From Cellulomonas dongxiuzhuiae (GTDB lineage Bacteria; Actinomycetota; Actinomycetes; Actinomycetales; Cellulomonadaceae), in contig NZ_CP076023.1 of NCBI RefSeq assembly GCF_018623035.1, forward strand, positions 3,286,001-3,350,000: 64,000 nucleotides of DNA. The letters run 5' to 3'. A program made the translations under genes and the position numbers. This document shows positions 20,254 to 27,184 of the stretch, piece by piece (position 1 is the stretch's first letter; every line of letters begins with the position of its first letter). Under the pieces are notes generated by a model. It saw nothing but the letters and a program-made list of their open reading frames with translations, was not told the DNA's origin and made no database searches.

Positions 20254-20799
20254 GTGACCACGCGATCCTTCCGCTTCCTGACCGCCCCCGTGCTCGCCGT
20301 CGCGCTCGCGGCGGCCCTCACCGGCTGCGGCGTCCTCGACTCCGTCCTGGGTGACAGCCCCGAGCCCGCGCAGCGCGACGAGCCCGGCGGTGAGATCACC
20401 GCCTCGGCCGAGGCCGACGTCTTCTCCCTGCAGCTCGGCGACTGCTTCGACTACGCAGCCCTGTCCGAGGCGACGGAGATCTCCTCGGTGTCGACCATCC
20501 CGTGCGGTGACCCGCACGACGCGGAGATCTACGCCGAGACCACCCTCACCGAGGAGCAGTTCCAGTCCGACCTGGCCCTGACGACCGCCGGGGACACCGA
20601 GACACCGACCGTCGCGGACCAGTTCTGCTACGACGCCTTCGCGGGCTTCGTCGGCAAGGCCTACGAGGAGTCCACCCTCGACTACACCCTCTTCTCCCCC
20701 TCCGAGGAGGGTTGGGAGCAGGGCGACGACGTCGTCCAGTGCATCGTCCTGCACCCGGACGGCGGGTTCACGGGGTCGATGCGCGACTCCACGCTCTGA
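20254..20799 (+). CDS. septum-formation-family (DUF-type) lipoprotein, copy 1
   Basis: A 181-residue predicted lipoprotein: the signal peptide ends in LTGC with Cys25, followed by an acidic linker. The mature part has four Cys residues in LGDCFDY, STIPCGDPHDAE, QFCYDAF and VVQCIVLHP. The pattern V-x-x-x-x-GDCF...V-x-C-x-x-PH-x-A-E matches the Septum_form domain family of actinobacterial membrane proteins. It probably folds outside the membrane with two disulfides. Function is not established; the family name comes from a mycobacterial septation-associated protein. The copy at 20976 is nearly identical over the mature region, so this is a recent tandem duplication. Confidence 0.82.
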   Translation: MTTRSFRFLTAPVLAVALAAALTGCGVLDSVLGDSPEPAQRDEPGGEITASAEADVFSLQLGDCFDYAALSEATEISSVSTIPCGDPHDAEIYAETTLTEEQFQSDLALTTAGDTETPTVADQFCYDAFAGFVGKAYEESTLDYTLFSPSEEGWEQGDDVVQCIVLHPDGGFTGSMRDSTL

Positions 20800-20975: not shown

Positions 20976-21509
20976 ATGAGCCCTCGTCCCCTCCGTTTCC
21001 TGACCGTCCCCCTCCTGGCCGCGACCCTCGCGGCCACCCTCACCGGCTGCGGGATCCTCGGTGACACCGCCGAGCCCGCGCAGCGCGACGAGCCGGGCGG
21101 CGAGATCACCGCATCGGCCGAGGCCGACGTCTTCTCCCTGCAGCTCGGCGACTGCTTCGACTACGCCGCCCTCTCCGAGGCGACCTCGATCTCGTCGGTG
21201 TCGACCATCCCGTGCGGCGACCCGCACGACGCGGAGATCTACGCCGAGACGACCCTCACCGAGGAGCAGTTCCGCTCCGACCTCGCCCTGACGGAGGCCG
21301 CGGACGCCACGACGCCGACCGTCGCCGAGCAGTTCTGCTACGACGCCTTCGCGGGCTTCGTCGGCAAGGCCTACGAGGAGTCCACCCTCGACTACACCCT
21401 CTTCTCCCCCTCCGAAGAGGGCTGGGCGCAGGGCGACGACGTCGTCCAGTGCATCCTCCTGCACCCCGACGCCGACATCACGGGGTCGATGCGCGACTCG
21501 GCGCTCTGA
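20976..21509 (+). CDS. septum-formation-family (DUF-type) lipoprotein, copy 2
   Basis: A 177-residue paralogue of the preceding gene, with the same lipobox (LTGC, Cys25) and the same four mature-region cysteines. The block from AQRDEPGGEITASAEADVFS through the last Cys is almost unchanged, whereas the linker after the lipobox is four residues shorter. It starts with ATG rather than GTG, and again no ribosome site is visible. A hairpin CCCCCGGC/GCCGGGGG at 21520-21548 follows its stop and may terminate transcription. Its last 32 bp overlap the 3' end of the converging thiamine-precursor ABC ATPase gene. Confidence 0.82.
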   Translation: MSPRPLRFLTVPLLAATLAATLTGCGILGDTAEPAQRDEPGGEITASAEADVFSLQLGDCFDYAALSEATSISSVSTIPCGDPHDAEIYAETTLTEEQFRSDLALTEAADATTPTVAEQFCYDAFAGFVGKAYEESTLDYTLFSPSEEGWAQGDDVVQCILLHPDADITGSMRDSAL

Positions 21510-24102: not shown

Positions 24103-24298
24103 GGGAGTCTCCGGATGGCCGAGGTGGCGGGGCGTGCGGGCACGGCGCAGCGACGCCACGCGGCCACGGACGTGGGCGCGGGCGCGGGTGGGACCGACGG
24201 GTGCGACCGATGAGGCAGGGACGCGGCGGCGTCAGGTGGCGGCGGGCCCCCGGCGTCGGTGCGGGTGGGCGTGCAGCGGTGGACGCATGGGAGACATG

Positions 24299-24379
24299 CG
24301 CGACATCCCTTCGCTAGTGCGACCTAGATCAGGTTCGACGGGTGTGATCTCAGCCGCTGGTGCGGCACCCCGTGTCACG
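24299..24379 (-). ncRNA. TPP riboswitch (THI element)
   Basis: Read on the minus strand, the RNA contains ACGGGGTGCCG, then GGCTGAGAT, ACACCC, CGAACCTGATCTAGGT and AGCGAAGGGATGT in the correct order. The CUGAGA loop and the ACCUGAUCU segment are the invariant pyrimidine- and pyrophosphate-binding elements of TPP riboswitches. The closing helix P1 pairs GACA (24376-24373) with TGTC (24305-24302). It precedes thiY, so high TPP should switch the importer off. The mechanism (terminator or ribosome-site sequestration) is not clear from the 195-nt stretch between riboswitch and start codon. Confidence 0.95.
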
Positions 24380-24387
24380 ACGCATCG

Positions 24388-24557: not shown

Positions 24558-26441
24558 TCAGCCGAGCGGGCCGTACAGCGCAGGCGACGTGCGCGCCCGC
24601 GTGGTCTGCTCGAAGTCGTACGCGAGGCCCAGGAGCGTGCCCTCGTCGAACGCGCGACCGACCAGCTCGAGGTTGACCCCCGCGCCCGTGATCGTGGCGT
24701 CGGCCGCGGTCGCCTGTCCCATCGGCACCGTCACGGCCGGCAGACCCGAGTTGGGGCTCAGCCGCATGTTGGTGCTGTGCGTGCCGTAGGGCGTGCCGCT
24801 CGGGTACGCCATGGCGTCGAGGTCGAGGTCGTCGAGCAGCTGCGTGACGAACGTGCGCCCGTTCGCGAGCGCCCGGGTGTGCGAGCCCTGCGGACCCGCC
24901 CACGCCTCGTACTGCTCGTCCGTGACGGCGGCCCGCTGCAGGTACGTGCTCCGGCGGGACGTCACATAGTGGCCGCCCGCGAGGATGTCCTCGATCGTGC
25001 GCGCCTGCACCGCGGGCGACAGGTGCCGCTCGACGTACCCGGCGAGGTCCCGACGGAACTCGTCGGTGCTGCCGCTCGGCTCGGCGAGCACCGCGTTGAG
25101 CTCCGCGGACGACGGCACCTCGACGAGCGTGGCGCCGCGCGCCTCGAGCGCCGCACGGGCCTCGGCCCACAGCCGCACCGTGGTGCGGTTGGTGCCGATC
25201 ATCGACGGCAGGTACCCGATGCGGGCGCCGTCGAGCGCGTCGGCGTCCAGCGACGCGGCGTACGACTCGGGGACGAGCCCGGCCTGCGAGGCCGTCACCG
25301 GGTCCGCGTCGTCGACGCCCACGACGGCGTCGAGCGCGACCGCCGCGTCGAGCACGGAGCGCGCCATCGGCCCGCCGGTGTCCTGGCTGAGCGCGAGCGG
25401 GATGATCCCGTCGCGGCTCGCGAGGCCGACGGTGGGACGCACACCCACCAGCTGGTTGTACGACGACGGCACGCGGATCGAGCCACCGGTGTCGGTGCCG
25501 AACCCGATGCCGGCGAGGTTCGCCGCGATCGCGGCACCCGTGCCACCACTGGAGCCGCCCGCGCTGCGCGACGTGGCGTACGGGCTGGCGATGCGCACCG
25601 TGCCGCCCACCGGCAGGCCCGCCGAGTACTCGGAGACGAACCCGTACGCGAACTCGTCGAGGCCCGCCTTGGCCAGGACCACCGCGCCGGCCTCCCGCAG
25701 GCCCGCGACCATCGTCGCGTCCGTCGTCGTCTGGTTGTCCTGCCAGCAGCCGCAGCCGCCCGTGGTGGGCATGTCGAGGGTGTCGTAGTTGTCCTTCACG
25801 GCCACCGGCACGCCGAGCAGGGGGCTGGTCATGCCGTGCGCGGCACGCTCGGCGTCGGCGGCGGCCGCCGCGGCGAGCGCGACGTCGCTGACGGCGATGA
25901 TCGAGCTGAGCGGCCGGCCGCCCGCCCCGGTGTCGACGAGCGTGTCGTCGTACGCCGTGATCCGCTCGAGGTAGGCCTGCGTGATCTCGACGGACGTCGT
26001 GACGCCCGCGTTCATCGCGGCCTGCATGTCCAGGACGCTCGCCTCGACCAGCTCGAACGCGCCGTCGTCGTACACCATGCGCTGGGAGACCTGGGCGAGG
26101 TCCGTGAGCGTGAGGGTCCCGTCGCCGTCCACGTCGGCGACCGCGACCTCGGTCCAGCCGGACGAGCCGGCGGTCGCACCGAGGTGCGCGGCGACGACGT
26201 CGAGGTCGGCGGTGGTGACCTGGCGGTCGCCGGTCACGTCGAGCTCGGTGAGGTACGGGGTGAGGAAGGCTCCGCCCGGCGCGGCGGCGGCCGGTGCGGC
26301 GGTGGCGGGTGCCGCGACGGCCCCCGCCAGGGCGAGGGCGCCCGTCACCGCGACGGCGGTGACGCTGCGGCGCAGCTGCGGTCGGTCCACGGGTCGGCTC
26401 CTGCGGGTCGGGTCGGTCGGGGCGGTGCCGGGGCGGCTCAT
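24558..26441 (-). CDS. secreted amidase with N-terminal dockerin domain
   Basis: A 627-residue predicted secreted protein. The signal peptide covers residues 1 to about 49 (hydrophobic core VTAVAVTGALALAGAVAAP). Residues 66-123 form a type-I-like dockerin with two EF-hand-like Ca loops: D68-V-T-G-D...D79 and the ideal D103-V-D-G-D-G...D114, 35 residues apart. From about residue 133 an amidase-signature domain follows. Lys216 lies in VAVKDNYDT, the cis-Ser in SAGGSSGG (Ser297/298) and the nucleophile Ser321 in TDTGGSIRVPSS, so the Ser-cisSer-Lys triad is complete. Its ATG overlaps the cohesin gene's stop (ATGA). The substrate is unknown; secreted members of the family include peptide amidases. 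The adjacent cohesin protein is the obvious docking partner. Confidence 0.88.
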   Translation of the reverse strand: MSRPGTAPTDPTRRSRPVDRPQLRRSVTAVAVTGALALAGAVAAPATAAPAAAAPGGAFLTPYLTELDVTGDRQVTTADLDVVAAHLGATAGSSGWTEVAVADVDGDGTLTLTDLAQVSQRMVYDDGAFELVEASVLDMQAAMNAGVTTSVEITQAYLERITAYDDTLVDTGAGGRPLSSIIAVSDVALAAAAAADAERAAHGMTSPLLGVPVAVKDNYDTLDMPTTGGCGCWQDNQTTTDATMVAGLREAGAVVLAKAGLDEFAYGFVSEYSAGLPVGGTVRIASPYATSRSAGGSSGGTGAAIAANLAGIGFGTDTGGSIRVPSSYNQLVGVRPTVGLASRDGIIPLALSQDTGGPMARSVLDAAVALDAVVGVDDADPVTASQAGLVPESYAASLDADALDGARIGYLPSMIGTNRTTVRLWAEARAALEARGATLVEVPSSAELNAVLAEPSGSTDEFRRDLAGYVERHLSPAVQARTIEDILAGGHYVTSRRSTYLQRAAVTDEQYEAWAGPQGSHTRALANGRTFVTQLLDDLDLDAMAYPSGTPYGTHSTNMRLSPNSGLPAVTVPMGQATAADATITGAGVNLELVGRAFDEGTLLGLAYDFEQTTRARTSPALYGPLG

Positions 26442-27184
26442 CGGGCGGCCGCCGTCCGGCGACGCACGAGGAACGCACCGAGCGCGACCGCACCGAGCGC
26501 GAGCGCGAGCAGGCCACCCACCTGGGCGCCGGTCGCGCTCAGGGTCCCGGTGCCCGGACCGGACGCCGCAGCGCCGGCCGTCGCGGACGGCGACGGCACG
26601 GGAGCGGTCGCCTCGGGGGTGGTCGTCGGGGTCGGGGGCGTCGCCGTCGGGCCGGGCGTCGTCGTCGGGCCGGGCGTCGGCGCGGGCGCGACCTCGACGG
26701 CGACGGACGTCACGTCCGCGGCGGCGACCGTGGCCCCGTCGGAGCCGACGAGCGTCAGGCCCGACAGCGTGACCGTCGCCGTGCCGCCGGCGAGCGTGCG
26801 CAGGCGCACCGTCGTGGCGACCGTGCCCGTGAGGCCCGGGGACGCACCGAGCCGCGTGTGCCGCACCGTCACCGAGCCGGTGCCGCTCGTGACGTCGTCG
26901 AACCCGCCGTCGGGCGCGTCCGTCACGGAGTCGAACGCGAGGAGCGCGGGGTCGAAGGTGAGCGTCGCCTCGTACGCGTACAGGTCGGTGACGTCCAGCA
27001 GGTCCAGCCGGACGTCGACGGTCGCCCCGGCGGTCACGGGCCCGGTGGGGACGGCGAGCGTGGCCTCGTCGACGGTGGGGGCGGCAGCGGCGGGGACCGC
27101 CGTCAGGAGGGTGAGACCGAGGACGGCGAGGGCGGCGTGCAGGGCACGTCGCCTCGGCCTCGACCCGGGGGTGCGGTCGCGCAT
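26438..27184 (-). CDS. wall-anchored cohesin-domain protein
   Basis: A 248-residue surface protein. The signal peptide occupies residues 1-35 (core LHAALAVLGLTLLTAVPAAAA). Residues 38-165 form one cohesin-like beta-sandwich: GATVDVRLDLLDVTDLYAYE, then LTFDPALLAFDS and LAGGTATVTLSGLTLVG follow the cohesin strand order. A Pro/Thr linker spans 166-213. The C-terminus is a sortase-type signal: LSATG (215-219), a hydrophobic helix (222-240) and RRR tail. LSATG resembles the LAxTG motif used by actinobacterial class E sortases. Translation is coupled to the dockerin amidase, so the two probably form a cell-surface complex. The cohesin call is by pattern recognition; other carbohydrate-binding sandwich folds look similar. 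Confidence 0.82.
   Translation of the reverse strand: MRDRTPGSRPRRRALHAALAVLGLTLLTAVPAAAAPTVDEATLAVPTGPVTAGATVDVRLDLLDVTDLYAYEATLTFDPALLAFDSVTDAPDGGFDDVTSGTGSVTVRHTRLGASPGLTGTVATTVRLRTLAGGTATVTLSGLTLVGSDGATVAAADVTSVAVEVAPAPTPGPTTTPGPTATPPTPTTTPEATAPVPSPSATAGAAASGPGTGTLSATGAQVGGLLALALGAVALGAFLVRRRTAAAR

Follow-up and report, generated by a model that had tools for sequence, protein, structure and literature searches.

Cellulomonas dongxiuzhuiae probably holds a secreted, peptide-amidase-like enzyme at its cell wall by means of a dedicated pair of one cohesin and one dockerin, encoded by two overlapping genes. The combination of cohesin and dockerin-amidase is a conserved, patchily distributed actinobacterial module and not an oddity of the genome from which the analyzed DNA (a stretch of 64,000 nucleotides, hereafter the window) was taken. 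Cohesin-dockerin pairs are known mainly from cellulose-digesting anaerobes and underlie both cellulosomes and designer enzyme scaffolds; scattered non-cellulosomal cohesins and dockerins are known as well.

Two overlapping genes encode a cohesin protein and a dockerin-bearing amidase

Both genes are encoded on the minus strand of the window, with the following features:

26438..27184, minus strand: cohesin gene (gene 1), 248 aa; secreted protein with a single cohesin, putatively anchored to the wall (ORF/translation and Pfam Cohesin)
27083..27184, minus strand: Sec-type signal peptide of the cohesin protein, residues 1-34, RPRRRALHAALAVLGLTLLTAVPAAAA (read by eye from the sequence)
26672..27082, minus strand: cohesin domain, residues 35-171, with the R111-L-G-x-S-P116 motif (AlphaFold2, Foldseek, VIA-align, invariant columns)
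26543..26671, minus strand: Pro/Thr-rich linker of the cohesin protein, residues 172-214 (read from the sequence)
26438..26542, minus strand: LSATG sorting-type motif (residues 215-219), hydrophobic segment and RRR tail (read from the sequence)
26438..26441, minus strand: ATGA stop/start overlap of the cohesin and amidase genes, 4 bases
24558..26441, minus strand: amidase gene (gene 2), 627 aa; secreted amidase-signature enzyme with a dockerin (ORF/translation and Pfam)
26079..26240, minus strand: dockerin domain, residues 68-121, with Ca-loop repeats D68-D79 and D103-D114 (Pfam Dockerin_1, ligand conservation)
24630..25988, minus strand: amidase-signature catalytic domain, residues 152-604, triad K216/S297/S321 (Pfam Amidase; nearest solved structure 1m21/1m22)

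The first-pass annotation had described this two-gene layout exactly, down to the coordinates and the ATGA overlap, and the 248-aa product indeed comprises the signal peptide, single cohesin, Pro/Thr linker and LSATG motif ascribed to it. The amidase gene product reads, in order, signal peptide, two-loop dockerin and amidase-signature domain. A Pfam search of the whole genome, a single contig of 3.98 Mb, found exactly one cohesin, the product of gene 1, and exactly one dockerin, that of the amidase; the further dockerin proteins for which a search had been proposed at first pass are thus absent from this genome's Pfam matches. Six other genomes searched contain one cohesin each.

Several neighboring features were recorded alongside. 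A TPP riboswitch (RF00059, 68.3 bits; 24289-24382, minus strand) lies just downstream of the amidase gene and precedes an NMT1/THI5-like binding protein (24159-23077) and an ABC ATPase (22317-21478), which look like a transporter unit of the thiamine type, distinct from the pair. Two adjoining genes for an ArsR-type regulator and an AHSA1/polyketide-cyclase-like protein (27730-27395 and 28245-27730, both minus strand like the pair) lie just upstream, separated from it by about 210 bases. Farther away, two adjacent and very similar secreted proteins that both match Pfam Septum_form (20254-20799 and 20976-21509, plus strand) look like a tandem duplication.

The upstream gene product is a cohesin with a sorting-type tail

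Residues 49-163 of the upstream protein match Pfam Cohesin (PF00963) with 27.0 bits against a cut-off of 24.1 (E 5.8e-6); at E 0.01, 56 of 64 homologous upstream proteins match the profile. AlphaFold2, supplied with 56 homologues, predicted a nine-strand cohesin sandwich (pLDDT 96.2, pTM 0.88), and structural comparison by Foldseek and VIA-align placed the model closest to the non-cellulosomal cohesins of Clostridium perfringens (2w1n, 2jh2 and 2vo8; Z 16.3-16.7), followed by cellulosomal type I, II and III cohesins (Z about 12-15). One of the former, the NagJ cohesin, was also retrieved by sequence with a profile of the cohesin family (E 1.9e-8). Profile and predicted structure hence agree with the initial assignment of the domain. 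Conservation within the family is strongest in the loop after strand 6, where R-L-G-x-S-P (R111-P116) is invariant, except that fused Nocardioidaceae cohesins replace the arginine and keep LGxSP. By comparison with the Clostridium thermocellum complex as a whole, rather than residue by residue, this loop would adjoin the dockerin-binding face.

The C-terminus of the protein reads as a sorting signal, with an LPxTG-like motif, a hydrophobic segment and a basic tail. All 66 aligned homologues have the L, T and G of LxxTG and the basic tail, LAxTG being the commonest form, and most Micrococcales loci retain such a tail. The Pfam Gram_pos_anchor profile found no match in the window cohesin protein and matched only 2 of 64 homologues. 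Of the sortases encoded in the genome, one is of class E and two are class F-like; class E sortases are associated with LAxTG. The window protein resembles the LAxTG proteins of class E sortases in its LxxTG motif, hydrophobic segment and arginine tail and differs from them in reading LSATG; given this departure from the consensus, anchoring by a sortase is putative and no more than likely, and the membrane segment itself could hold the protein instead.

The downstream gene product combines a dockerin with a peptide-amidase-like enzyme

The dockerin of the downstream protein matches Pfam Dockerin_1 (PF00404) at residues 68-121 with 30.4 bits against a cut-off of 22.9 (E 4.6e-7), and 52 of 54 homologues match the same profile. 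Of 81 homologues, 77-81 retain the loop ligands D68/D72/D79 and D103/D105/D107/D114. At two loci, L082 and L057, a deletion has removed the second Ca loop but left the first loop and the amidase in place; L082 keeps its cohesin with a dockerin that lacks loop 2, which speaks against the pairing proposed below.

The enzyme itself matches Pfam Amidase over residues 152-604 (252.8 bits), and the triad K216/S297/S321 is invariant in 81 of 81 homologues. The early reading of a secreted amidase with an N-terminal two-repeat dockerin, both of whose loops and all of whose catalytic residues are present, therefore holds, with both profiles above their Pfam cut-offs. The nearest solved relative of the catalytic domain is the peptide amidase of Stenotrophomonas maltophilia (Pam; 1m21/1m22, 232 bits over residues 129-620, triad aligned). 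Pam hydrolyses C-terminal peptide amides. It shares the positions of the Ser-Ser-Lys triad with the window enzyme and, unlike the latter, has no dockerin. By homology, the window enzyme would be peptide-amidase-like, with hydrolysis of C-terminal peptide amides as its putative activity.

Cohesin and dockerin-amidase co-occur across Actinobacteria

A scan of one genome per species returned 126 places that encode relatives of the enzyme, of which 80 were kept. They are found in Cellulomonas, Cellulosimicrobium, Oerskovia, Isoptericola, Georgenia, Demequina, Curtobacterium, Microbacterium, Leifsonia, Mycetocola, Herbiconiux, Nocardioides, Aeromicrobium and others. Of 396 genomes from across the order, 19 match the dockerin-amidase profile and the identical 19 match the cohesin profile, with none discordant, counts whose statistical weight is overstated by the relatedness of the genomes. 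Within the genus, the enzyme is present in 5 of 82 genomes; among 37 same-genus genomes, cohesin and enzyme are both found in the same four, and the fifth genome (G822) carries both. In all 17 Nocardioidaceae genomes with the enzyme, the cohesin lies beside or within it. Overall, the gene pair proposed for a search in related genomes proved to be kept in about 20 genera, and pairing exceeds chance because it is conserved to this extent. The pair recurs at 67 loci and any other neighbor at no more than 7, so that the pair is a self-contained module.

A phylum-wide search with the cohesin alignment, in which the best 10 candidates per genome were scored, matched only the window genome among 396, an absence that carries little weight. 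Among plasmids, nothing similar with a dockerin was found; the one amidase, from Metabacillus, matches only from residue 125, i.e. past the dockerin, and so gives no sign of plasmid carriage. An actinobacterial dockerin-amidase at the edge of a contig labelled Stenotrophomonas maltophilia P13 (L065) probably stems from a contaminating contig.

Three sequenced Cellulomonas genomes (PMC3544764) and Cellulosimicrobium cellulans F16 (PMC4562250) have been reported to lack cohesins and dockerins. In the present analysis, Cellulomonas species and several Cellulosimicrobium cellulans strains other than those proved to carry the pair or, where a contig ended, the enzyme. Our literature search retrieved no description of a cohesin/dockerin-amidase gene pair, though single pairs may figure in the non-cellulosomal survey of Peer et al. 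2009.

Gene overlap is conserved while architecture varies

In its commonest form, the module consists of a cohesin-anchor gene followed by a dockerin-amidase gene. Wherever the cohesin gene lies just upstream, the two overlap by stop and start codon (64 of 64 measured pairs; 57 ATGA, 5 GTGA, 2 TGATG). The order is reversed with an anchored cohesin at L117 and L118, and with an unanchored secreted cohesin at eight loci: L022 (Isoptericola), L085 (Aeromicrobium), L147, L150, L153, L154, L157 and L159. The unanchored separate cohesins belong to seven Nocardioidaceae and Isoptericola.

Natural fusions complete the picture. Ten dockerin-amidase-cohesin fusions without an anchor are encoded in Nocardioidaceae (L067, L081, L082, L148, L149, L151, L152, L155, L156 and L158), one fusion of this order ends in an LAVTG tail (L115, in G613), and one Microbacterium locus (L073) encodes an unanchored cohesin-dockerin-amidase fusion. 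An LHPTG in L158, considered as a sorting signal, was rejected as a chance match. On the amidase-domain tree, these forms imply at least four changes between the fused and the two-gene state and at least six changes of architecture. Two otherwise normal pairs (L016 and L057) contain frame breaks; no in-frame read-through cohesin/amidase pair was found for complex prediction. In L147, L150, L153, L154, L157, L159, L085 and the Nocardioidaceae fusions, Ig-like repeats usually come after the cohesin and end in a short basic tail with no sorting signal, perhaps another means of envelope attachment. The conserved core is thus the union of cohesin, dockerin and amidase, of which wall anchoring is the commonest form and not the sole one.

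Cohesin and dockerin may act as a private pair

Do the two domains act together? Cohesin and dockerin distances remain correlated once amidase distances are removed (partial Mantel r 0.29, permutation p about 5e-4), lending modest support, at the level of sequence, to co-variation of cohesin and dockerin beyond that with the amidase. A mutual-information signal linking columns of the cohesin to columns of the enzyme came mainly from incomplete rows and was discarded. A fold prediction for the natural fusion L073, made from an alignment with cohesin rows only, gave a confident cohesin and a poor dockerin (pLDDT blocks 37-77, pTM 0.60).

In the mechanism we propose, gene 1 would supply a single cohesin that is secreted and kept at the envelope through its sorting-type C-terminal tail, and gene 2, whose translation the ATGA overlap probably couples to that of gene 1, would be expressed such that both proteins are made in step. 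The N-terminal dockerin of the secreted amidase would dock onto this private cohesin, probably in a Ca2+-dependent manner, and keep the enzyme at the cell wall, where it may hydrolyse amide groups of peptides or of the peptide parts of wall polymers near the cell. That a dedicated one-cohesin/one-dockerin pair retains the enzyme at the wall in this genome is our favored reading and a probable one. It draws on the identity of the domains, the conserved overlap, co-occurrence and adjacency of the genes, the natural fusions, the presence of one cohesin and one dockerin per genome, and the predicted cohesin fold. The first-pass annotation had seen here a minimal one-enzyme display system. For the window this is still the best reading—a single cohesin with a sorting-type tail, a single dockerin, overlapping genes and perfect co-occurrence—but as an account of the family it falls short, since anchoring is not universal (Nocardioidaceae, Isoptericola and one Microbacterium).

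Display alone, moreover, leaves the conservation unexplained, because both domains are retained in Nocardioidaceae and in one Microbacterium where a sorting signal is missing. In these unanchored and fused forms it is the union that is conserved, not the anchor, and a role of the cohesin as a clamp or regulator is therefore a serious rival or addition. The cohesin might stabilize or regulate the amidase, for instance as a Ca2+-sensing lid or folding partner, with the wall anchor as a lineage-specific addition. Both domains persist without an anchor in the ten Nocardioidaceae fusions, in the seven Nocardioidaceae and Isoptericola with free cohesins and in L073, and the anchored fusion in G613 keeps both even though a dockerin would be needless for attachment there. 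Against this stand the sorting-type tails kept at most Micrococcales loci, and the C-terminal repeats of the Nocardioidaceae forms might attach them by other means. We regard the clamp as a tentative explanation that falls somewhat short of an even chance.

It is improbable that cohesin and dockerin serve to join molecules into surface chains or rings. This would be clearest in the fused forms, in which both halves share one chain in at least three separate lineages (Nocardioidaceae, G613 and L073); however, such forms may bind in cis, and the window proteins, whose single cohesin and single dockerin belong to separate chains, cannot self-polymerize. Equally doubtful is that the cohesin binds another partner, that the dockerin-like repeats are a Ca2+-stabilized spacer of the amidase and that the genes are adjacent for shared regulation: the dockerin profile does also resemble EF-hand pairs such as calmodulin, but EF-hand profiles fall below their own cut-offs on this region whereas Dockerin_1 passes, the genome has a sole dockerin for a sole cohesin, co-occurrence is perfect, fusions exist in both orders, and L066, which alone among the loci with flanking DNA has no cohesin, is missing dockerin loop 1 as well, i.e. 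the two decayed jointly.

Relation to known cohesin-dockerin systems

With the clostridial cellulosome, the proposed private pair shares the cohesin fold and a two-loop type I dockerin. It differs in having no multi-cohesin scaffoldin, cellulose-binding module or enzyme set; where a cellulosome has several cohesins on a scaffoldin and several dockerin enzymes, this genome has one cohesin, one dockerin and one cargo. Closer relatives are the C. perfringens non-cellulosomal cohesins of NagJ/GH84C (2w1n, 2jh2) and GH33 (2vo8), which share its non-cellulosomal use as well as being nearest in structure and, for NagJ, recognizable by sequence. The C. perfringens cohesin is borne by a glycosidase and serves to link secreted enzymes, whereas that of the window stands alone on an anchor and has an amidase as its partner.

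Each of the parts (cohesin, dockerin, amidase, sorting tail) is a known one; we regard their one-to-one pairing in Actinobacteria as a new variation. Possibly, though we put this forward with some reserve, the actinobacterial cohesin-dockerin contact was recruited as an enzyme-specific clamp, in which a private cohesin, be it anchored, free or fused in cis, controls or stabilizes its enzyme and no scaffold is involved. Being natural and minimal, with a single partner for each half and a cargo other than a glycosidase, the module offers a clean system in which to ask what the contact does outside scaffolds, and its natural cis fusions constitute a family in which the role of that contact can be tested.
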